Positions 11,391 to 20,414 of a DNA stretch of 64,000 nucleotides are shown piece by piece (position 1 is the stretch's first letter; each line of letters begins with the position of its first letter). The notes below the pieces were generated by a model that was given only the letters and a program-made list of their open reading frames with translations, was not told the DNA's origin and did not search any database. The DNA is taken from the NCBI RefSeq assembly GCF_000757385.1, contig NZ_JRHH01000005.1, positions 248,001-312,000 on the forward strand, written 5' to 3'. This DNA comes from Flavobacterium aquatile LMG 4008 = ATCC 11947. Lineage in GTDB: Bacteria; Bacteroidota; Bacteroidia; Flavobacteriales; Flavobacteriaceae. A program made the position numbers and the translations under genes.

Positions 11391-11828
11391 TTATTTCAAA
11401 TACAAACAATGGTTGTAATAATCGATAATTGCTTTTCCATTTAGCAAAATATCGGCGCCAATAATTCCGTGAACTGGTTTGGCTTTATGTTGAATGAGTG
11501 CCAAATTTACGTGGGTTAAATCGAAAATCACCAAGTGAAATTCGTTGTTTTTCCATTTGCCAAGTTGGAGTTTGTTGTCTTTTGCAAGTAGAGTTTCCAT
11601 GCCATTTGCGCCAGCTCCAGAAGCTTTGGTTTTGGATTTTCCAGCTTTTAATTGAAATAAACTGATGCTTTCAAATCCGACACAACTGTTGCTTGCGCCA
11701 GTATCGAGAATGAAACTTCCTTTAATTCCGTTGATGCGTGCTTTTATTAAAAGGTGTTGCGTTTTGGAAACTTTGAAATTTATTTTTTTATATTTTTCTT
11801 TTTTAAGAATCTCTTGGAACTTTTTCAT
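11391..11828 (-). CDS. Retropepsin-like aspartic protease (clan AA)
   Basis: A single-domain aspartic protease of 145 residues; retropepsins act as dimers with one Asp per subunit. Visible: catalytic motif ILDTGASNSCVG with Asp42, the flap-region glycine-rich stretch (SGAGANGME, about 71-79), and the C-terminal hydrophobic-hydrophobic-Gly motif (VHGIIGADIL, about 118-127). There is no signal peptide, so it should act in the cytoplasm. Its first 26 bases overlap the end of the CHAT-TPR gene in another frame, so the two are translationally linked. The cytoplasmic C-terminal tail of that membrane protein is a possible substrate, which is inference only. Confidence 0.87.
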   Translation of the reverse strand: MKKFQEILKKEKYKKINFKVSKTQHLLIKARINGIKGSFILDTGASNSCVGFESISLFQLKAGKSKTKASGAGANGMETLLAKDNKLQLGKWKNNEFHLVIFDLTHVNLALIQHKAKPVHGIIGADILLNGKAIIDYYNHCLYLK

Positions 11829-14439
11829 AGTTTATTTGTTTTCTTCTTCGTCGAATGAACAAAAATAGCGAAACTAAAGCAAAAACAACTACGCATCCGA
11901 TAATTGAAATCCACAAAAAATTATTGTTTGCAGATTGATTTTCTAATGATCCATAATAAACGAATGATGCCCAATAATAAGGCGATTTTTTAGCATTGGA
12001 AATGGTTTCATCATTTAAAAAATCGAGTTTGGCTTGATGGTTGGATTCGAAAAAAGAATTACCTTTTTTTACCTTTTTATAAAATTTTTCCATTAAAACC
12101 GAAGTGGTAAAATCGTTTACCTTCCAAAGTGAAAATAGTAAATTTTGTGCTCCAGCAAACTGAAATCCGCGTGCCACACTCATTGCGCCTTCTGATTTGT
12201 AGAGCTTTCCAATTCCGGTTTCACAGGCAGATAAAACTACTAAATTGGGATTTAAATTTAGATTATAAAGTTCAGAATAAAGAATTTCTTGATCTATAAA
12301 TCGAATGCTTGCGGGTTCAATTATATCGCCAGATGACGCGTGTGTAGAAAGATGAATGATTGAATAATTTTCAGCATTTTTTTTGAAATTTTCGAAAGAG
12401 GCTTCTTGTTTATCTAAGTATTTTCCTGAGAAATTGGCTTGTAAATTTTTGAGTTCATTTTTGGAGAAAGCCAGTTCTAAGTTGGAGTTTTCAAATAGTG
12501 GAAAAACACCTAAAATGGTTTCTTTTTTGTGGTAAAATGGAATTGAGTTCAAGTAAAAATCTGCCGAATTGCTGTATCCAATTTTGAAATCATTTAATAG
12601 ATAACTCATTTTAGCAAAATTTGTAGTCTTACTTTCTTTCGTAATTAAAGCCTCAAAAGGCAAAAATGTTAGCAAGCCATCGGGAATGATGATGAGGTTT
12701 TTGTGGTTTGACTTTTTAGGAAGTTGTAATGTTTGGTACAATAAAAAACTTGATGTATTATATTTAGAAATCGACTTTGCAATCTTCTCACTATCTGAAA
12801 AATAGTCTAGGAATGAAACGATTTTAGAATTTGTATTGTCAGTTTTTATAGAGCTTAATTTTATCGAATTGTTTTCAATTGTAAAAATATAGACATTTTC
12901 AATTCCCATAAAATATTCCACCAAAACGGCATTTTCTTTTTCTAATTTAAAATATAAATCGGCTAAATTCAAATCTTTTTCTGATGTTTTTGCTCTTTTA
13001 TTTTGTTTCGATTTTAACAAAAGCATCAACTCGTTTTGTTTTTTAATGGCTTCGTTGATAATTGAAATATCGGCTCGATCTGATTTTTGTTGTTCTTTAA
13101 TAATGGTTGTATTCCAGTTTTGAAGTTGTTCTGTAATTAGTTTTTCTTCTCGAGAAAAATTCTTTTTATCAAAAAACGATTGTTTTAAAACAGCCGATTT
13201 TGTTTTTTCTGAAAGTAAAAAGGCACTTTCTAAGTGACTAATTTTAGCTTCGCTCAGTTCGCCTTTGGCTCGGGTCTTTTCTCTTTGATATAATGAATTG
13301 TAAATTTCGATACATTTCTCAGTGCGATTTCGGTTTCTAATTTGCGTGATGATTTTCGAATTTTCATACACCAAAAGCAATTGTAATAATTCTTCAATAT
13401 GAAACGATAGCGCATAACTTTCGAGTGCTTTTTTGGGCTTATTTTGGGTTAAAAATAATTTTGCTTGCAAGTCGAATGCATCCAACAATGTGGTTTCGGC
13501 ATAAAGGGAATTGGCTTTTGGAAGAATAGATTTAGAACTTGAATAACTCGGAATTAAAGTTTTGAAAACACGATTTACAGCATTTTTAGATTCAATAATT
13601 TGGTCGTTTTGAAAGAATAAAAAAGCTTCGTCATAATAGAGTTTTGCAATCGAACGTGACGAATTATTTTTGTTTTTTAGAAAGGTTTCTTTTGCTTGTT
13701 CGAATAATTGTAAGTTGTTATTTAGCAGTGCTAAATTTCTATAAGCATTTGATAATGATTCATTTTCATTTGAATTTTTCAGAAGATTTATTGAAATTTT
13801 ATAGCTAGTTGCTGCTTTTTGATTGTTGTTGGAAGCCAAATAATTATTTCCTAAATTATTCCATAACATACCTTTTTGCGTATTTGATAATTTTTCAGAA
13901 GCAATGGTTTTTTCTAGTAAATTGACAGCATCTAAATGTTTTCCAGAATACTGATAAACATTTGATAAATTAAGAATTGAAGCAAATTTTTGTTGCTGAT
14001 TATTTTCAAGATTGGCTATGAAATAATACTGTTTTATTACATTTTCGGCATTTTCATAATCGCCAATAATGGTGTATAAATTTCCTAAAGGTTTTAAACA
14101 AGATTCAGTAATATCATAATTAGACAACTTATTTTTTTGAAACAATTGCCAAGCTTTTTCATAACTTTTTATCGCTTTTTGTGTCTGTCCAAATAGGTTT
14201 TGATAATACGCTTTATTGCAATTTAAAATCACAAATGCTAAAAGTTCTGGTTTATTTTTTGTCACATCCAGCGCAGTCGAGATGCTTCTTTCAAACGACT
14301 CTAATTTTCTTAAGGACTCTTCATTTGGATTGGCTACTAATTTATCAATGGCAACATAGATTTTTTCTTCTAATGGCAAAGCCTTACTTTGTGAAAAAGC
14401 AAGTTGCGTGAGTAGAAATAGAATAAATAGTTTTCGCAT
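11803..14439 (-). CDS. CHAT-domain tetratricopeptide protein, membrane anchored (caspase-like protease)
   Basis: 878 residues in the order: signal peptide (MRKLFILFLLTQLAFSQ); TPR-like helical repeats (about 25-380); a coiled region (about 380-480); CHAT caspase-like protease domain (about 560-830) with the predicted catalytic His in HLSTHASSG (about 700) and Cys in VVLSACETGIG (739), both intact; a C-terminal membrane segment (about 841-862); and a basic tail (RRRRKQINYEK). The topology implies a periplasmic TPR/CHAT part and a short cytoplasmic tail. It lies 33 bases after the PKD/barrel gene and overlaps the retropepsin gene by 26 bases, so the three form an operon. The substrate is unknown. 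CHAT-TPR proteins in Bacteroidota are often near sigma factors, as here, but this one has not been tied to a pathway. Confidence 0.9.
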   Translation of the reverse strand: MRKLFILFLLTQLAFSQSKALPLEEKIYVAIDKLVANPNEESLRKLESFERSISTALDVTKNKPELLAFVILNCNKAYYQNLFGQTQKAIKSYEKAWQLFQKNKLSNYDITESCLKPLGNLYTIIGDYENAENVIKQYYFIANLENNQQQKFASILNLSNVYQYSGKHLDAVNLLEKTIASEKLSNTQKGMLWNNLGNNYLASNNNQKAATSYKISINLLKNSNENESLSNAYRNLALLNNNLQLFEQAKETFLKNKNNSSRSIAKLYYDEAFLFFQNDQIIESKNAVNRVFKTLIPSYSSSKSILPKANSLYAETTLLDAFDLQAKLFLTQNKPKKALESYALSFHIEELLQLLLVYENSKIITQIRNRNRTEKCIEIYNSLYQREKTRAKGELSEAKISHLESAFLLSEKTKSAVLKQSFFDKKNFSREEKLITEQLQNWNTTIIKEQQKSDRADISIINEAIKKQNELMLLLKSKQNKRAKTSEKDLNLADLYFKLEKENAVLVEYFMGIENVYIFTIENNSIKLSSIKTDNTNSKIVSFLDYFSDSEKIAKSISKYNTSSFLLYQTLQLPKKSNHKNLIIIPDGLLTFLPFEALITKESKTTNFAKMSYLLNDFKIGYSNSADFYLNSIPFYHKKETILGVFPLFENSNLELAFSKNELKNLQANFSGKYLDKQEASFENFKKNAENYSIIHLSTHASSGDIIEPASIRFIDQEILYSELYNLNLNPNLVVLSACETGIGKLYKSEGAMSVARGFQFAGAQNLLFSLWKVNDFTTSVLMEKFYKKVKKGNSFFESNHQAKLDFLNDETISNAKKSPYYWASFVYYGSLENQSANNNFLWISIIGCVVVFALVSLFLFIRRRRKQINYEKVPRDS

Positions 14440-14472
14440 AAAATCTTAATACTTAATACTCAAATCTTAATA

Positions 14473-16479
14473 CTAAAACTTCCAAATACCATAAAATTGC
14501 CAGTAACTAAAATCTTTTTCAAAGTTGGCGTAATAACGAATTCCAACGCTTGGACCAATTCTTGCAAAACCAAAAGTAACATCGGCAAAAACACTGGTTT
14601 GCATTTTTTCAAAAGCTTTTGTTTTAAAAGATTCCGATGAATCTTCTCTCAAAGAAGTGATTTCATTGCCTGGTCTTGGCGGCGTTGTTGCATCAAAAAT
14701 GGGTTCATAATAACGTTTAGTTCGAGTATTTTCTGTTGTTTGATTTAATAAAACCGAAAATTGTGGTCCAACGCCAACACCAATATAATTGTTTAAATTA
14801 TATCGCAATGAAATTGGAACAACATCGGCAGAATTTCTCGTAAATGTTGTTGATGTTGTGGTTTGTGTGAATCCAATGTCGAGTACAGTTCCGTTGTTTA
14901 TGACTATTGGTGGCGTAAAATTTTCAAGCTCGAACGGAGTTTGTGATGTCGAAGTTCCGCTTTCTAATCGGCTGTAATACAATTCGGATTGCCAGTAGAA
15001 TTTATAGGATTTGTAAGGCGAAATTGTTGCACCAAGAAAGTAACTTTTTGATCCTTTTTGGTCTGGAAATAAATTGTAACCTGTTCTTACTCCAACAGAA
15101 GTTCCAGGTCTAAATCTAGTTACAGCGTAATTGGTAATTACGGGTTCGTTTTTGTCAAAAATAATGGCTGTTCGGCTTCTGGTTTTTTGTTTGTGAAAAT
15201 CTTTGGCAAATTTCATTGTGTATTTTACAAAGCCTTTGGTAGAATCTTTTTCGGTAACATTTTTTTGATTGCTTCCCGGAATGTAAATGTTTTTAAAAGT
15301 AAAATGAATTTGTTTTTGTTTAATTAAGGTATCCAAACAACTGTAATTTACTTCTTCATCTTTTGGACAAATGGGACATTTCGGATAACTATCAACTATT
15401 TTTAAAGTTTTTTTATCGAACATATCTGGAATGTCGGTTTCCAATCGAATCATTCTCGCCGGACCTTCACCATCGTTTTGAAAACGTGTTTTGAAATTTA
15501 GGGTTTTCAATCTTACGATTCTATAATTCATAAAAGTTCCGTTGCTCGACATTTTATTTGGATCATGTGACGTTACAATTTCCATTTCGAGGGTTTTCTT
15601 TTTGTAGTTTTTATAATTTCTATCAGGAACATAAACGCCTCGCATTTTAACCGTTGCGCTTGTGTCTTTAATCATTTCTGGTGTGGTTTTGAAAGTCATA
15701 AAAACATTGCGAGTTTCTTTCGGATTCATTTCGTCAAACTCAAATACTTTCGAATCTGTAAATAAACTTTTGCATTGAGCAAGAGTAACATCCAAGTCTT
15801 CTTCTGCATCGAAAGTGTCTGTTAACGGCGGAGTACCATTTGCGGAAGCGTAATTTTCGAATGAATTATTAAAGTCTCCCACCATCGCAATTCCGTTTTC
15901 CATAATTTCTCTTTCACCAAAGTGAGTTCGAGTTTCTAGTAATTCGAAATTTTTATTTTTGAATTCTTTGTCGTTGTAAAATAAATACAGTTTGCCATTA
16001 GCGACATAATCTAAAAGATTTTGATAACTAACCACAATCACCAATTCTTCCTCTGGAACTGGTTCGCGATTGTTAAAGATTTTTAAAGAAATACTATCCA
16101 ATAATGATGCGATTTCGGTGTAATTAGTGTCGGAAATTTCGTTGATAGCAACAGTTTTTGGTCGGGTTTTAGGTGGTTTTCCATTATCGTAATTGTTGGT
16201 AACAGATAAATTTACTTTGTAATCGCCTTTCTTTTTGTAAACTTTTTTAGGTTCGATTTCTTTGCTGTAACTGCCATCGCCCATTTCCCAAAAATAACTG
16301 TAATTGGCTTTTGGAGCGCCAGCAATTTGAATTAATGGCGGTGTTTGGGGTTTAAATGAGACTAGATTTCCTTTTTTATCATAACCAATTGTAGCTCTTC
16401 GGGTTATGGTATCTTTTACTTTTGTTTGCGAAAAGGAAAATGTAGTTGCTAAAATAGCAAGTAAAACTAATTTTCTCAT
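14473..16479 (-). CDS. PKD-domain protein with C-terminal outer-membrane beta-barrel
   Basis: 668 residues. A signal peptide (MRKLVLLAILATTFSFSQ) is followed by a PKD domain (about 40-110; FWEMGDGSYSKE and GDYKVNLSVTN are its hallmarks). A central region has an alpha/beta-fold repeat of the kind often next to sorting domains (SHDPNKMSSNG, FQNDGEGPA, about 300-450). The last ~190 residues are aromatic/glycine alternating strands ending SYWQFYGIWKF, typical of an outer-membrane barrel. A CPICPKDEE cysteine pair lies in the middle. The in-frame TTG two codons earlier (16485) is less likely than this ATG. It is the first gene of the operon with the CHAT and retropepsin genes. It plausibly is a surface sensor or anchor; that is inference. 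Confidence 0.82.
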   Translation of the reverse strand: MRKLVLLAILATTFSFSQTKVKDTITRRATIGYDKKGNLVSFKPQTPPLIQIAGAPKANYSYFWEMGDGSYSKEIEPKKVYKKKGDYKVNLSVTNNYDNGKPPKTRPKTVAINEISDTNYTEIASLLDSISLKIFNNREPVPEEELVIVVSYQNLLDYVANGKLYLFYNDKEFKNKNFELLETRTHFGEREIMENGIAMVGDFNNSFENYASANGTPPLTDTFDAEEDLDVTLAQCKSLFTDSKVFEFDEMNPKETRNVFMTFKTTPEMIKDTSATVKMRGVYVPDRNYKNYKKKTLEMEIVTSHDPNKMSSNGTFMNYRIVRLKTLNFKTRFQNDGEGPARMIRLETDIPDMFDKKTLKIVDSYPKCPICPKDEEVNYSCLDTLIKQKQIHFTFKNIYIPGSNQKNVTEKDSTKGFVKYTMKFAKDFHKQKTRSRTAIIFDKNEPVITNYAVTRFRPGTSVGVRTGYNLFPDQKGSKSYFLGATISPYKSYKFYWQSELYYSRLESGTSTSQTPFELENFTPPIVINNGTVLDIGFTQTTTSTTFTRNSADVVPISLRYNLNNYIGVGVGPQFSVLLNQTTENTRTKRYYEPIFDATTPPRPGNEITSLREDSSESFKTKAFEKMQTSVFADVTFGFARIGPSVGIRYYANFEKDFSYWQFYGIWKF

Positions 16480-16510
16480 AATCAAAGGGTTTTGGTTAGG
16501 TTATATAAAA

Positions 16511-16545
16511 GTAAGAAAAAGTGACGAACTAGCCGTCACTTTCTC
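16511..16545 (-). terminator. Intrinsic terminator after the lipoprotein gene at 16578
   Basis: On the minus strand AAGTGACG pairs with CGTCACTT around a 7-base loop and is followed by TTTTTC. It ends the lipoprotein transcript about 35 bases after its stop, so the PKD-CHAT-retropepsin operon needs its own promoter. A TACTTTTA sequence just downstream is a one-mismatch -7 candidate. Confidence 0.7.
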
Positions 16546-16577
16546 TAAAAACTAAATTAACCTTTTTCATAATTTTG

Positions 16578-17561
16578 TTATGGTAGCGCATTTATAGCAG
16601 CTACTAATTGGGCTTGGCTTCCAACTGTTGTTTCGGATAATGTGAAAGTATAAACATCATCGGCAGCAATAGTAACACCTTTTATAGCATAACGCCATTG
16701 ACCATCTTCTTCGGTTACAAAAATAACGTGGCATTCTAAACCAATTGGAATTTGACCGTAATGTTCAGAGAACTGATTAGTTGCATCATTGTAAGTATCT
16801 AATTTTGCTAAAGTACTTGCTTCACCATCATAATGTAAGTAAACCGCACTGTTTTCAAAATCGTATCCATTTGGAGCTTCGGCTAAAATCATAGTTCTTG
16901 GTCTTGGGTCGCTGTAAAAACGATCTACATTTGTCCATCCAAAACTATCGAAGAAAGCATAATAAGGTGCATTTACTCCAGTTCCTTCAACGAAAACTCC
17001 GCCTTGTCCTGCAGGATTTTGTTCTTGTTCGTCCCATTCTAGATTTCCATCTTCGTCTATAGTTCCGTCCCAAAGTGTCATTCCAGTATCGGCACCGCCA
17101 GTTAATGTTGATGGAATTAACAATTGCATTGGGCAAGTTATGTCTAAATCAACTCCGCCTTGCGATGCGTTGATGTAAAATTCTCCTCCAGAAACTAATA
17201 ATGTCATGTCGCCGTTAGGCATTCTTCCCATTGTAGTTTTGTCAGTTACAAGCATGTTTCCAGCATCGAATAATTCTACATATTCAATAGCAACACTTCC
17301 AGTTACAGGATTTCCGTTTTTTAATAAGCAGTTACCATTGATGCTAAATTGTACGCCTTTATCTGATGTAAAAGTGGTTACGCCATCTTCTGCAACTAAA
17401 GTAAAGTTTTGCGTAAGGTTGTCTAATGCTGTTTGTCTAACATTGTCAAATTCAGCTGCACTTGGAGCTTGATTTCCTTCTACAGGATTGTCGTCTGAAC
17501 AACTTACAAATGCTAATGTAGCTAATACTACTAATCCGATGTTTTTAAAATTTGTTTTCAT
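16578..17561 (-). CDS. Surface/periplasmic lipoprotein of unknown function
   Basis: 327 residues with a lipoprotein signal (MKTNFKNIGLVVLATLAFVSC, lipid-modified Cys at 21) and the acidic SDDNP sequence after it, which in Bacteroidota often marks surface-exposed lipoproteins. The body is Gly/Thr/acid-rich and predicted to be beta. I do not recognise a named domain. The promoter region holds motif copy 1 (17636-17666), shared with the next two genes and attributed to the neighbouring sigma factor. The start region (AGAAATCATGAAAACAA) is shared with the genes at 18290 and 18811. A terminator follows at 16511-16545. Confidence 0.82.
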   Translation of the reverse strand: MKTNFKNIGLVVLATLAFVSCSDDNPVEGNQAPSAAEFDNVRQTALDNLTQNFTLVAEDGVTTFTSDKGVQFSINGNCLLKNGNPVTGSVAIEYVELFDAGNMLVTDKTTMGRMPNGDMTLLVSGGEFYINASQGGVDLDITCPMQLLIPSTLTGGADTGMTLWDGTIDEDGNLEWDEQEQNPAGQGGVFVEGTGVNAPYYAFFDSFGWTNVDRFYSDPRPRTMILAEAPNGYDFENSAVYLHYDGEASTLAKLDTYNDATNQFSEHYGQIPIGLECHVIFVTEEDGQWRYAIKGVTIAADDVYTFTLSETTVGSQAQLVAAINALP

Positions 17562-17635
17562 GATTTCTGTTTTTTAAGATGCAAAAACTTAAGTGTGTTT
17601 GCGTTGATTATTAAATTTACTTTTGTTTTATATTA

Positions 17636-17666
17636 TTATATCAACTGAATTTTAATTTTGTTACCC
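17636..17666 (-). promoter_or_regulatory. Putative alternative-sigma promoter, motif copy 1
   Basis: Minus-strand GGGTAAC (17660-17666), 15 bases, then TTGATATAA (17636-17644), about 75 bases upstream of the lipoprotein gene at 17561. The element matches the other four copies in both halves and in spacing. Confidence 0.7.
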
Positions 17667-17690
17667 TAGTTTTAATTTTTTTTTCATCTA

Positions 17691-18290
17691 CTAGTAATAA
17701 GCAAAGTCAATGTAAGGAATTCCCATGTTTACAAGCGGACCACCATTTTGATAAAAATTGGCTCCAGTAATAGTCATGATTCCAAAGTTTTGTGGAAAAC
17801 TAACCAATGCACCAGGCTGATTTACAACTCGACCTATAATGTTTCCAAAATTATTTGAGGCATTTGCTACAAGAATTGTTCTTCTTATTTTATACGGTTG
17901 ATTGGCAACGATTAAGGTTGGAGTTACCGTCACATAACTTGTATTCGCTGATGAAAAAACGTGATTTCCAGAATAAATAACGGTGTTGGTATTTACATCT
18001 ACAATTTCCATCAGATAAGGAACGGCGGCAACGGCTGGTTGACTTTGATAACCAATACTACAAATGGTTTTGGTTTGAGAAAGAGTAAAAGTATATTCGT
18101 GAATTTCAGTATCAAATGTATTGGTGTTTTGATGTCCAGGAAGTGCAACCACGTTGGTGTACAATTGATTGAAAATAGTGTTGGTGGAGTTACATGGTGG
18201 AACTGGAATTGGATTTGTTCCGTTAGAGCAACTGCTAATTATTATTCCTAATATGAATAATGTTACGATGTTTTTTAGTGTTGTTTTCAT
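17691..18290 (-). CDS. Lipoprotein of unknown function
   Basis: 199 residues with a lipoprotein signal (MKTTLKNIVTLFILGIIISSC, Cys at 21) followed by a Pro-rich stretch (NGTNPIPVPPCNS). The rest is predicted beta-sandwich-like with regular Thr/Val strands (TFTLSQTKTICSIGYQSQ, YLMEIVDVNTNTVIYSG, PYKIRRTILVANAS). No family recognised. Its N-terminus and the bases around the start codon resemble those of the genes at 17561 and 18811. It has motif copy 2 33 bases upstream, so it is a separate transcription unit rather than the second gene of an operon. Confidence 0.8.
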   Translation of the reverse strand: MKTTLKNIVTLFILGIIISSCSNGTNPIPVPPCNSTNTIFNQLYTNVVALPGHQNTNTFDTEIHEYTFTLSQTKTICSIGYQSQPAVAAVPYLMEIVDVNTNTVIYSGNHVFSSANTSYVTVTPTLIVANQPYKIRRTILVANASNNFGNIIGRVVNQPGALVSFPQNFGIMTITGANFYQNGGPLVNMGIPYIDFAYY

Positions 18291-18322
18291 GATTTCTGAG
18301 TTTTTAAATGTTATTTATAATG

Positions 18323-18353
18323 TTATATCAACTGGGCAACTAATTTGTTACCC
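18323..18353 (-). promoter_or_regulatory. Putative alternative-sigma promoter, motif copy 2
   Basis: Minus-strand GGGTAAC (18347-18353), 15 bases, then TTGATATAA (18323-18331), about 33 bases upstream of the start at 18290. The region also forms an inverted repeat (ATCAACTGGG at 18328-18337 with CCCAGTTGAT at 18351-18360), which could serve as terminator of the preceding gene or as an operator. Confidence 0.72.
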
Positions 18354-18364
18354 AGTTGATTAAT

Positions 18365-18811
18365 TTATTTTTCAAAATCGGCACTTTGTATGATTTTATA
18401 GTTCAAAATGTCACCTGTGCTCACTAATTCTATCATTCGTTTGGCTTGACTTTCAGAGCTTGAAAACCCTTTTGCAGTTCCAGAATTGGTAGTTACTTCC
18501 CAAAAGTATAATCTCACTGTATTTGAAGAAACCGTTTCTTTTACTTGAAAGAAGCTTTCAATTTTTCTGTCAAGGACAATTTCTCCTATTGATGATAATT
18601 CGATCATTCTTTTTGCTTCTTCCAATGAATTGGCTGTTCCTGAATAATTACCTTGATTCGTTCTTACGTTCCAATCATAAACTTCTGTAATTTGATCTCT
18701 TGTAAGAGTTGAAGTTGTTTCGATTGTGTTTGAAGTTGATGTTACTTCTTTAGCATTAATGTTTGAAAATGATAATGCTACGATTGCTAATGTTAAAATT
18801 GTTGTTTTCAT
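18365..18811 (-). CDS. Secreted protein with two tandem repeats, unknown function
   Basis: 148 residues: signal peptide (MKTTILTLAIVALSFSNINA), a Thr/Ser-rich linker, and two copies of a ~43-residue unit at about 45-87 and 102-143. Each unit has a W-x-V/R-T-N start (DWNVRTNQG; FWEVTTNSG), a Gly-rich turn, an identical AKRMIEL helix (66-72 and 123-129) and a G-x-I end. The period is 57 residues. No known domain recognised. It is the gene closest to the divergent sigma factor. Three copies of the putative sigma promoter motif stand in tandem before it, suggesting it is the strongest target of the system. Confidence 0.8.
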   Translation of the reverse strand: MKTTILTLAIVALSFSNINAKEVTSTSNTIETTSTLTRDQITEVYDWNVRTNQGNYSGTANSLEEAKRMIELSSIGEIVLDRKIESFFQVKETVSSNTVRLYFWEVTTNSGTAKGFSSSESQAKRMIELVSTGDILNYKIIQSADFEK

Positions 18812-18856
18812 GATTTCTAATTTTTTTATTAATTGTTGTGATTTTGTTTTCTATTG

Positions 18857-18887
18857 TTATATCAATTAGTGTTTTAATTTGTTACCC
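18857..18887 (-). promoter_or_regulatory. Putative alternative-sigma promoter, motif copy 3
   Basis: Minus-strand GGGTAAC (18881-18887), 15 bases, then TTGATATAA (18857-18865), about 46 bases upstream of the start at 18811. Nearest of three tandem copies. Confidence 0.75.
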
Positions 18888-18941
18888 TATTTTTTCAAAT
18901 TTCTTTTCAGGAATTTTAACTCTCAATTGATGTGCTTTTCT

Positions 18942-18972
18942 TTATATCAATTGTCATTTAAATTTGTTACCC
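18942..18972 (-). promoter_or_regulatory. Putative alternative-sigma promoter, motif copy 4
   Basis: Minus-strand GGGTAAC (18966-18972), 15 bases, TTGATATAA (18942-18950). Middle of three tandem copies, 85 bases from copy 3. No gene lies between the copies. Confidence 0.65.
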
Positions 18973-19031
18973 TTCCATTCAAATTATTTTAGTTAACTTT
19001 TAAAAACACTATTTCAATGAACTTTATATCA

Positions 19032-19062
19032 CTATATCAACTCACTTTTAAATTTGTTACCT
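19032..19062 (-). promoter_or_regulatory. Putative alternative-sigma promoter, motif copy 5
   Basis: Minus-strand AGGTAAC (19056-19062), 15 bases, TTGATATAG (19032-19040). One mismatch in each half, same spacing. It is 90 bases from copy 4 and only 44 bases from the divergent sigma-factor start, pointing away from that gene. Confidence 0.6.
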
Positions 19063-19105
19063 CAATTGTTAAATTTTTTCTACATTAGCAGTAAATAAGG
19101 TAGTT

Positions 19106-19687
19106 ATGGTAGATAAAAATCTTCATCCCGATCAGTTGTATATTGATGGATTGCTCCAAAATAATTCTAGTATTATCCAATCTATATATAAGAAGTTTGT
19201 TCCAAAAGTTAAAAACTACATTCGAACCAATAGTGGTGACGATGATCAAGCTCAAGATGTTATCCAAGAAGTTTTAATAACTATTTACAATCAGGCAAAA
19301 ACAAATGGTTTGCAATTAAGTTGTCCGTTTGATGCCTACTTTTTTTTACTTTGTAAAAGGCGTTGGCTTAATGAATTAAAAAAATCATCCAATAAAGAGG
19401 TAACATTAATGGATGAAAATGTATCTATAGAGGAATCGGTTCAAGAAATGACTTTTCAAACCGAAGCTTTCGACGAAAAACAATCATTATTTGACGAAAT
19501 GTTTCAAAAGCTAGGAGAGAAATGTCAAGAAGTACTCAAACTAAGTTTTGTAACCAAAACGATGGAAGAAGTAGCCGAAAAACTGAACGTTACGTATGGT
19601 TATGTGCGCAAAAAGAAATCGCTTTGCACTGGTCAGTTAACCGAAATGATTCAGCAATCAAATAGATACAAATCTTTAAAATACTAA
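19106..19687 (+). CDS. RNA polymerase sigma-70 family (ECF-type) sigma factor
   Basis: A 193-residue two-domain sigma factor. Region 2 spans about residues 22-93 (SIIQSIYKKFVPKVKNYIR, then DDDQAQDVIQEVLITIY and WLNEL), and region 4 about 130-183 (EKCQEVLKLSFVTKTMEEVA, then the YGYVRKKK recognition helix). No region 1 or 3 is present, as expected of ECF factors. It lies 4 bases before the membrane TPR gene at 19692, its likely anti-sigma partner. It is divergent from three genes that carry five copies of a -35/-10-like motif, so those are its probable targets. Its own upstream region has only a weak TACATTAG box, not the motif on its own strand, so autoregulation is not obvious. Confidence 0.93.
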   Translation: MVDKNLHPDQLYIDGLLQNNSSIIQSIYKKFVPKVKNYIRTNSGDDDQAQDVIQEVLITIYNQAKTNGLQLSCPFDAYFFLLCKRRWLNELKKSSNKEVTLMDENVSIEESVQEMTFQTEAFDEKQSLFDEMFQKLGEKCQEVLKLSFVTKTMEEVAEKLNVTYGYVRKKKSLCTGQLTEMIQQSNRYKSLKY

Positions 19688-19691
19688 AGTC

Positions 19692-20414
19692 ATGAGCGAG
19701 CAATTGTACATAACATTCGAAAATTATTTCAGCAACGAAATGTCGCAAGAAGAGAAATTGGAATTCGAAAACCAACTTCAAAATGACATAGAATTGCGAG
19801 AAAAATTTGAACTATATAAAGAAACTACAAAGTTTCTAGCAACCAAATTTGATTCGGAAACCATTGCTTTCAAAGAAAATTTGAAGTCAATTTCTAAAGA
19901 AAATTTTGCAGAAAAAGAAGTTAAGAAATCAAAAGTTATTGCGTTCAAACCATTTTATTATGCTGTTGCAGCATCGGTTGTTTTGGCACTTGGAACTTGG
20001 TTTATGATGCAAGGAACTCCAGAATATGGTGATTTTAATCAACACGAAAATGCCTTTTTTGTTGAACGTAGCGTTGGTGATACTAATTTAAATGAAGCAC
20101 AAAAAGCGTTCAATGAAAAAGACTATAAAAAAACAGTTTTAGCATTTGAAAAAGTTCAAAATCTAACTAATCCAGAGTTGCAATATTTTTATGCAATCGC
20201 ATTAATTGAAACCAATGATTTTACCAAAGCCGAAATTTTATTGAATACTATAAAATCGGGAAGTTCGGTTTATAAAGAAAAAGCAGTTTGGTATTTGGCA
20301 TTATCCAATTTAAAACAAAATAAAATAGACGAATGTAAAATTTATTTGAATCAACTTTCACCTGATGCCGAAGATTATCAAAAAGCACAGAAATTATTGA
20401 AAAAAATAGATTAA
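19692..20414 (+). CDS. Membrane-anchored TPR protein, putative anti-sigma factor
   Basis: 240 residues: a cytoplasmic N-terminal helical part (EQLYITFENYFSNEMSQEEK, LEFENQLQNDIELREKFEL) like the sigma-binding zinc-less anti-sigma domains of Bacteroidota, one membrane segment at about 87-106, and a periplasmic TPR-like helical part (about 130-235; LNEAQKAFNEKDYKKTVLAF, ELQYFYAIALIETNDFTKAE). It starts 4 bases after the sigma gene, so the pair is co-translated. The role is inferred from position and topology: holding the sigma factor at the membrane until a periplasmic event releases it. The CHAT protease of the cluster would be on the same side of the membrane as the TPR part. Confidence 0.72.
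   Translation: MSEQLYITFENYFSNEMSQEEKLEFENQLQNDIELREKFELYKETTKFLATKFDSETIAFKENLKSISKENFAEKEVKKSKVIAFKPFYYAVAASVVLALGTWFMMQGTPEYGDFNQHENAFFVERSVGDTNLNEAQKAFNEKDYKKTVLAFEKVQNLTNPELQYFYAIALIETNDFTKAEILLNTIKSGSSVYKEKAVWYLALSNLKQNKIDECKIYLNQLSPDAEDYQKAQKLLKKID

Follow-up and report, generated by a model that had tools for sequence, protein, structure and literature searches.

A candidate caspase-like protease paired with a membrane anti-sigma factor in Flavobacterium aquatile and other Bacteroidota

How might an event at the cell envelope reach the genes for surface proteins in Flavobacterium aquatile? The question is raised by eight genes at positions 11391–20414 of a 64,000-nt window (the whole stretch of DNA analysed here, positions 248,001 to 312,000 of contig NZ_JRHH01000005.1) from strain LMG 4008 = ATCC 11947, whose genome comprises 3.49 Mb in 7 contigs. 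Genes for an extracytoplasmic function (ECF)-type sigma factor and a membrane anti-sigma-like protein with a tetratricopeptide repeat (TPR) domain face a minus-strand row encoding two lipoproteins, a secreted repeat protein, a PKD/barrel protein, a TPR-CHAT protease and a retropepsin (Table 1). An initial annotation of this DNA listed these eight genes, all of which are present where it placed them, and suggested that the CHAT protease cuts the anti-sigma protein. We propose that the locus encodes an envelope-to-gene switch in which the CHAT protein would indeed cut the anti-sigma protein, freeing the sigma factor for surface-protein genes, and we give this reading a probability of roughly three in four. 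A predicted link of this kind is backed by covariation between CHAT residue 776 and anti-sigma residue 126, which argues that the protease acts directly on the anti-sigma protein.

How would such a switch work? The sigma factor would be held at the inner membrane by the anti-sigma protein, whose TPR domain would lie in the periplasm. A C-terminal helix would anchor the TPR-CHAT protein, whose catalytic part would also be periplasmic, and the PKD/barrel protein may sense a signal or relay one to the CHAT TPR domain. The CHAT protein would then cut the anti-sigma linker between the membrane helix and the TPR domain, directly after Arg126, which would be read by CHAT Asp776 and perhaps also by Glu662. 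The remnant would lose its hold on the sigma factor, through further proteolysis or a change in conformation. Once free, the sigma factor would use GTAACA-N16-GATATA promoters to transcribe genes for surface lipoproteins and secreted proteins. What computation shows is the conservation, the linkage, where the motif occurs, the covariation and the resemblance in fold; the topology, the cleavage and its site, what becomes of the remnant, the part played by the barrel protein and the use of the motif by this sigma factor are what we infer.

What ties the protease to this substrate? A first alignment joined 77 CHAT/anti-sigma pairs, with CHATs shorter than 700 aa or more than 8 kb away left out. 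Arg126 occurs together with Glu662 and Asp776 in 65 of 65 pairs. Where position 126 is Lys in loci L081, L083 and L090 (L numbers denote loci and G numbers genomes), residue 662 is Val, Val and Met and residue 776 is Glu; where it is Met in L201–L203, residue 662 is Leu, Leu and Ala and residue 776 is again Glu. L205 combines Lys126 with Ser662 and Asn776. The remaining five pairs, with Lys (L104), Met (L106), Gln (L120) or a gap (L119, L125) at 126, all have Asp776. Among 76,230 column pairs, corrected mutual information ranks 126-662 second and 126-776 61st. Two further sets were fetched later. The first comprises 30 pairs from 40 loci, which were selected for CHATs resembling the Lys- and Met-type ones; it has Arg with Asp776 in 12/12 pairs and Lys, Gln or Met with Glu776 in 18/18; position 662 is less strict here, Glu being kept in 4 of the 18 non-Arg pairs. 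The second, 43 pairs from named genomes after removal of three near-duplicates of earlier pairs, has Arg with Asp776 in 35/35, while its eight non-Arg pairs comprise four with Glu or Ala at 776 and four with Asp (L318, L333, L334 and L343, with an Arg adjacent to the column in L333). Over all 150 pairs, Arg126 is matched by Asp776 in 112 of 112, and none of the 29 CHATs with Glu, Asn or Ala at 776 is paired with Arg.

Could the two columns have changed together by chance, in subfamilies that differ in many residues anyway? The covariation was placed on a CHAT tree built without these two columns, using 144 pairs; six ambiguous pairs, all with Asp776, were dropped, four because an Arg lies close to the column (L104, L106, L120, L333) and two because of a gap (L119, L125). 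Residue 126 changes on six branches and residue 776 on four, and all four are shared, which none of 20,000 random placements matches. Such a lineage effect would find some encouragement in the small number of switches, since there are four only and two large clades (12 and 11 tips) account for one each, and in the smaller set of 107 pairs, where 126 changed five times, 776 three times and just two branches were shared (29 of 20,000 random placements). Adding pairs brought the overlap to completion, however (4/4), and residues 126 and 776 are reciprocal best partners among 359 CHAT and 185 anti-sigma columns, with p 5.5e-8 against 3.6e-3 and 1.5e-2 for the next-best partners in a test that ignores branch lengths. 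The CHAT columns ranking next after 776 are 662 and 698, the latter between H696 and H700. We therefore consider a chance association improbable.

Why these two residues? Separases bind the P1 Arg, the residue directly before the cut, through a conserved Asp (PMC10317155), and a model of the Caenorhabditis elegans enzyme uses two acidic residues (PMC4626109); hence, the covarying pair is the one that this chemistry predicts. Asp776 follows the catalytic Cys by 37 residues, and the corresponding distance in human separase is 41 (Asp2070 according to PMC10317155, C2029 according to an entry title). Judging from order and spacing, Asp776 is probably the counterpart of the separase Arg-binding Asp. 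Covariation speaks of recognition rather than catalysis, so the CHAT pocket might instead bind the linker as a scaffold or receptor, with the sigma factor freed by a conformational change or by another protease; DdvA, an anti-sigma factor whose own chain carries a CHAT domain, is an example of the two combined. Yet H700 and C739 are intact in all paired CHATs (77/77, 30/30 and 43/43), which is unexpected for a scaffold, and the covarying CHAT residue sits where, from separase, the reading of P1 is expected. A scaffold is thus unlikely, if somewhat less so than a chance association.

Are the genes also linked beyond this locus? PF12770, the CHAT family model, matches in 18/148 genomes of the order and 148/296 of the Bacteroidota genomes sampled. 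Linkage was counted for 67 CHAT genes in 64 loci: 60 loci not chosen by their neighbours and four distant Flavobacterium loci picked for closeness of sigma and CHAT genes, all of them anchored and with both neighbours. Sigma and anti-sigma genes lie within 6 kb of 28 of the 40 CHATs with a C-terminal helix, versus 4 of the 27 others (Fisher p 1.3e-5); without the four picked loci, the count for anchored CHATs is 24/36. The corresponding counts are 46/73 and 2/8 for a second set, which was selected for its likeness to the window family. The arrangement of the genes varies: they may diverge, converge so that their ends overlap, or follow one another as sigma, anti-sigma and CHAT in a single row. 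In many loci the CHAT gene adjoins the anti-sigma gene while the remaining genes differ. Linkage that is kept despite such reshuffling suggests a functional tie. One subtype, with sigma, anti-sigma and CHAT genes in one row, Met at 126 and Glu at 776, comprises L201–L203, L237–L239, L241–L243, L245, L246 and L248.

Within the genus the association is tighter. Orthologues were called in 199 Flavobacterium genomes at an E value of 2e-100 or better for CHAT and at least 67% identity for sigma. CHAT orthologues occur in 66 genomes and sigma orthologues in 68, and all 66 CHAT genomes have the sigma factor, a co-occurrence that is not due to chance. In 61 of these 66, both genes lie complete on a single contig, and in the other five contig breaks part the two genes or run through the CHAT gene; the two genomes with sigma and no CHAT orthologue (G073 and G130) are fragmented assemblies. 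Among 40 loci fetched and compared, 34 are orthologous (L047–L080), and their core consists of CHAT, PKD/barrel and 327-aa lipoprotein genes facing sigma and anti-sigma genes. The PKD/barrel gene adjoins CHAT in 34/34, and also in L204. The 327-aa lipoprotein is found in 33/34, its place being taken in L061 by an unlabelled 623-aa gene; the presence of further small genes, among them those for the second lipoprotein and the repeat protein, varies. Outside the order, G569 (L204) carries the core without the retropepsin. The association of sigma factor, anti-sigma protein and CHAT protease noted in the initial annotation thus recurs, also with different gene orders. In L080 (G179), the CHAT and barrel genes are each split in two frames and the other genes look intact.

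What happens where CHAT is missing? In G048, G076 and G095 (L085, L158 and L159), the locus lacks the CHAT, barrel and lipoprotein genes. Its sigma and anti-sigma genes form one fused frame, in which neither sigma region 4 nor the N-terminus of the anti-sigma protein is seen by eye; the match of the sigma query ends at residue 130–142. Joint loss of CHAT and sigma region 4 fits a common function. In all three loci the fused frame is followed by a 548–551-aa protein that looks S41-peptidase-like by eye. A fourth genome, G597 (L190), has no CHAT, and the 17 kb read there contains no sigma match.

Several observations weigh against cleavage of the anti-sigma protein by CHAT. First, Arg126 is still present in the CHAT-less G048, G076, G095 and G597, so that these loci may be recent remnants or the residue may serve a second use, and Arg or Lys also stands at 126 in L191, L193, L197 and L200, which have no CHAT in the 17 kb read, the genomes of these four loci carrying CHATs elsewhere. 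Second, three pairs are exceptions: L318 and L334 (Lys with Asp776) and L343 (Leu with Asp776). Third, a second normalisation of the mutual information drops 126-662 to rank 162 and 126-776 to rank 291 of 76,230, and the covariation depends on the four independent switches described above and a simple probability model. Fourth, 12/40 and 27/73 anchored CHATs in the two linkage sets have no sigma and anti-sigma match within 6 kb, some of them at contig ends. Fifth, the anti-sigma N-terminal domain was matched to no solved fold in whole-model searches, which were filled by TPR matches. The presence of Arg126 was also considered as a mark of dependence on CHAT and rejected, because Arg or Lys is kept in L190, L191, L193, L197 and L200; among anti-sigma proteins without an adjoining CHAT, only L194, an interrupted frame, has Val there. 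Presence of Arg or Lys at 126 alone hence does not discriminate; only covariation does. Position 126 is Arg or Lys in 24/25 distant anti-sigma proteins.

Is the CHAT protein a protease? It scores 143.5 bits against PF12770 (cut-off 24) and is the only match to this model in the genome. The initial annotation described its His and Cys as intact, and H696, H700 and C739 are invariant in 55/55 aligned CHAT proteins. By domain and catalytic His/Cys, it belongs with the CHAT peptidases (clan CD), and proteolysis is predicted. A structure model (predicted local distance difference test score, pLDDT, 89.7; predicted template modelling score 0.86) has a signal-like N-terminus and a membrane helix at residues 838–873. 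With this model, Foldseek places Csx29 first (E 4e-13), followed by separase and DdvA (E 9e-9), and a second aligner gives Z 30.1 for Csx29 (root-mean-square deviation, rmsd, 8.2; 561 residues aligned), up to 26.8 for separase and 20.8 for DdvA. Unrelated TPR proteins reach Z 21.2, no lower than DdvA, so the sequence match to DdvA is firmer than the structural one. Differences in the curvature of the TPR arcs probably account for the large rmsd values; taken by itself, the protease fragment of separase gives Z 25.4 and an rmsd of 3.2 Å over 309 residues. A single-protein sequence search with the CHAT part found no relative of known structure; a profile of that part did, with E 2.3e-8 for DdvA and a best E of 7.9e-8 for Csx29 entries.

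What of the substrate? The sigma gene matches Sigma70_r2 above the cut-off, Sigma70_r4 at the cut-off and TIGR02937 (sigma70-ECF) with 61.8 bits versus 42.9, and the gene directly after it has the layout of a membrane anti-sigma factor, an N-terminal domain before one membrane helix. The anti-sigma model (mean pLDDT 84.6) begins with a helical domain, followed by a membrane helix at about residues 88–106, a linker at 107–130 and a TPR domain at 131–239. Mean pLDDT in the linker region is 63 for residues 101–110, 88 for 111–120 and 68 for 121–130, which are coil. The NCBIfam model NF052375 (“anti-sigma factor”) matches 29/59 family members at E <= 0.01; the window protein has E 0.0078, under the curated cut-off. 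Given the signal-like N-terminus and C-terminal helix of CHAT and the mid-protein helix of the anti-sigma protein, both TPR parts should lie outside the inner membrane.

Which genes would the switch control? The initial annotation suggested that the sigma factor controls the lipoprotein and repeat genes, and this gains sequence support from a common, locus-specific promoter-like element that it did not mention, first recognised by reading intergenic DNA. The pattern GTAACAAATT-N10-TTGATATA, with up to three mismatches, has five matches in the window versus 0.58 expected from shuffles. GTAACA-N16-GATATA precedes both lipoprotein genes and the repeat gene. Its five exact copies in the whole genome all lie at 17637–19060 on the minus strand, with no copy at one mismatch and five at two; a backwards control has seven at up to two mismatches. 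The orthologous loci, 35 with the window (402 kb), and other loci (867 kb) were scanned with a looser pattern and up to one mismatch. Within 3 kb before the sigma gene, on the strand of the lipoprotein genes, 98 copies are found, in 35/35 orthologous loci; there is one elsewhere in the 402 kb and five in the 867 kb. The next gene is the 327-aa lipoprotein gene for 62 copies, the second lipoprotein gene for 8, the repeat gene for 12 and another gene for 16, and the nearest copy usually lies 30–90 nt from the start codon. One copy is near-fixed relative to the sigma start, its low end lying 73–74 nt before that start in eight loci including the window and 85–89 nt before it in 14 others; this copy may overlap the sigma factor's own promoter and act as feedback.

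Does the element extend beyond the locus? Among 24 genomes, the 18 that bear the locus have 39 exact copies of the looser pattern inside it and 10 outside, an outside copy occurring in 10 of the 18; of the six genomes without the full locus, G048 alone has an exact copy. Seven of 11 distal copies examined lie 52–93 nt before genes that, by eye, encode exported-looking proteins, two of which are lipoproteins resembling the 327-aa lipoprotein. The four distal copies in L153–L156, one of them from G048, share or nearly share extra letters and lie 183–187 nt before a gene for a 519–525-aa protein; we take them as another kind of site.

Use of the motif by this sigma factor is an assignment by location, so the element might be the binding site of another regulator, and promoters do not usually stand in tandem as far as about 500 nt from a start codon, as some copies here do. 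Spacing of 16 nt between two hexamers suits ECF promoters, however; the copies in the locus are all on one strand, with the nearest usually 30–90 nt before start codons, and the seven distal copies also precede genes of exported-looking proteins. Another regulator is hence unlikely, about as unlikely as a scaffold role for CHAT or slightly less so. In the distant loci L087, L088, L089, L100 and L121, GTTAAC- or GTAAAC-like elements in both orientations are seen by eye before the sigma gene and are perhaps promoters of those sigma factors.

Might CHAT act downstream of the sigma factor instead, as an effector that processes the lipoproteins or secreted proteins while the sigma factor controls the locus? 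CHAT and the lipoprotein genes belong to one gene row, so read-through past an intervening hairpin (Table 1) could link their expression, and in loci such as L083 CHAT follows a gene divergent from sigma. Against this, the 200 nt preceding the barrel, CHAT and retropepsin genes contain no motif copy with up to two mismatches in any of the 35 orthologous loci, the hairpin lies between, the CHAT gene often keeps to the anti-sigma gene when the other neighbours differ, and anti-sigma residue 126 is the top covarying partner of CHAT residue 776. An effector role is the least probable of the alternatives. The hairpin, which has a T run and separates the 327-aa lipoprotein gene from the barrel/CHAT genes, has a fold z-score of −4.55, although the count of such sites in the region does not exceed that in shuffles; L048 has a hairpin with different stem letters at the same place (z −5.10). 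The predicted outputs and the CHAT gene may thus be expressed apart.

How does the proposed switch compare with known systems? The closest is Craspase, the type III-E CRISPR system of Csx29, Csx30 and CASP-sigma, which likewise has a TPR-CHAT protease, a sigma-inhibiting substrate, an ECF-like sigma factor and, as described in PMC10028731, a sigma motif before genes of its own locus; Csx29 is also the best structural match of the CHAT model. Csx29 cuts the sigma-factor inhibitor Csx30 between residues 427 and 429, but it acts as part of a Cas7-11 complex, with target RNA as the trigger (PMC10028731), whereas the CHAT protein here has a predicted membrane anchor. The accessible text of that source does not describe Csx30 as a membrane TPR protein, and the column of D776 is Ser in Csx29. 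No Cas protein was found by Pfam scan among the ten genes at 10.0–21.3 kb of the window. In Myxococcus xanthus, the ECF sigma factor DdvS has the anti-sigma factor DdvA (PMC4374960), a transmembrane protein according to entry titles 8rot and 8rw5, with a CHAT domain that matches the profile and model of the window CHAT; there the anti-sigma and CHAT parts form one chain, and here they are two genes on opposite strands. ECF54 sigma factors have conserved CHAT, carboxypeptidase and subtilase neighbours and proposed proteolytic control (PMC8999054); the likeness is one of gene context as that source describes it, and the present locus differs in having a membrane anti-sigma protein. RseA/DegS and RsiW exemplify protease-controlled membrane anti-sigma factors (PMC10028731), but the predicted first protease here is a caspase-like CHAT protein rather than DegS, and no second protease is identified. 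Separase shares a helical-repeat part, a caspase-like domain and a pocket Asp that binds the P1 Arg (PMC10317155); it is eukaryotic and cuts cohesin, and the equation of Asp2070/Asp2151 with D776 is drawn from order and spacing.

What would be new? A literature search covering few subscription journals found a CHAT domain together with an anti-sigma factor only in Craspase, and none with a Flavobacterium or Bacteroidetes sigma factor. Caspase-like release of an ECF sigma factor is therefore known; its predicted setting in the periplasm, with a separate membrane-bound protease and anti-sigma protein, is new. To our knowledge, few bacterial TPR-CHAT proteins have an identified substrate. Here sequence alone yields predictions of the substrate, the cut site and the specificity switch, all three open to testing by point mutation. 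If the proposal is true, caspase-like control of sigma inhibitors would extend from a CRISPR complex to envelope signalling. With less confidence than for the locus itself, we lean towards the view that a large, so far undescribed class of sigma/TPR-anti-sigma pairs in Bacteroidota has membrane-anchored CHATs as its dedicated first proteases, with each pair keeping its own match of pocket to P1; among the pairs, Arg goes with Asp, and Lys, Met and Gln go mostly with Glu. Several such pathways could then run side by side in one cell; G259, for example, has six CHAT matches and five anti-sigma matches.

Table 1. Features of the locus, in window coordinates
Feature	Position	Strand	Basis or remark
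Retropepsin, without signal peptide	11391..11828	-	PF13650 E 9.6e-11, above cut-off
TPR-CHAT protease, 878 aa (proteolysis predicted)	11803..14439	-	PF12770 E 1.2e-41
CHAT D776, predicted S1-pocket Asp	12112..12114	-	Covaries with anti-sigma 126
CHAT C739, catalytic Cys	12223..12225	-	Invariant; aligns with Cys of Csx29 ACET motif
CHAT H700, catalytic His	12340..12342	-	Invariant; aligns with His of Csx29 CHG motif
CHAT E662, second residue covarying with anti-sigma 126	12454..12456	-	Mutual information
PKD + DUF7619 + DUF7849 protein	14473..16485	-	Pfam, DUF7849 E 9.1e-60
Terminator-like hairpin between 327-aa lipoprotein gene and PKD/CHAT genes	16514..16546	-	14-pair stem and T run
Conserved lipoprotein, 327 aa, predicted sigma target	16578..17561	-	Lipobox Cys by eye
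Promoter-like element before 327-aa lipoprotein gene	17637..17664	-	
Second lipoprotein, 199 aa, variable member, predicted sigma target	17691..18290	-	Lipobox Cys by eye
Promoter-like element before 199-aa lipoprotein gene	18324..18351	-	
Secreted two-repeat protein, 148 aa, variable member, predicted sigma target	18365..18811	-	Repeats by eye
Promoter-like element, proximal copy before repeat gene	18858..18885	-	
Promoter-like element, second tandem copy	18943..18970	-	
Promoter-like element, third tandem copy	19033..19060	-	Low end 73 nt before sigma start codon
ECF-type sigma factor, 193 aa	19106..19687	+	Sigma-70 r2/r4 and ECF models
Membrane anti-sigma-like protein	19692..20414	+	Start 4 nt after sigma gene
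Codon of anti-sigma R126, predicted P1 residue	20067..20069	+	R in 34/34 orthologues; covaries with CHAT 776

What roles remain for the other genes? The PKD + DUF7619 + DUF7849 protein is probably an outer-membrane barrel and is the best candidate for an outer-membrane partner or sensor. The retropepsin is a single domain with the D-T/S-G active-site motif, FILDTGAS being invariant in 33/33 aligned proteins, and the CHAT gene overlaps its start by 26 nt. The initial annotation counted it as a member of the signalling system and named a lack of recurrent co-occurrence of CHAT or retropepsin genes with the sigma pair as a result that would refute its proposal. In that comparison CHAT does recur with the pair, and the retropepsin does not outside the orthologous loci: among the annotated further loci it is found only in L092, an orthologous locus, and in L190 (G597). 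It is intact in the four genomes G048, G076, G095 and G597, where no CHAT match is found, and was for this reason rejected as a needed switch protease; it is probably not a needed part of the switch. The gene is present in 31 of the 34 orthologous loci and was not found in L047 (a contig end), L060 and L077, and given this linkage another tie to the neighbourhood is possible.

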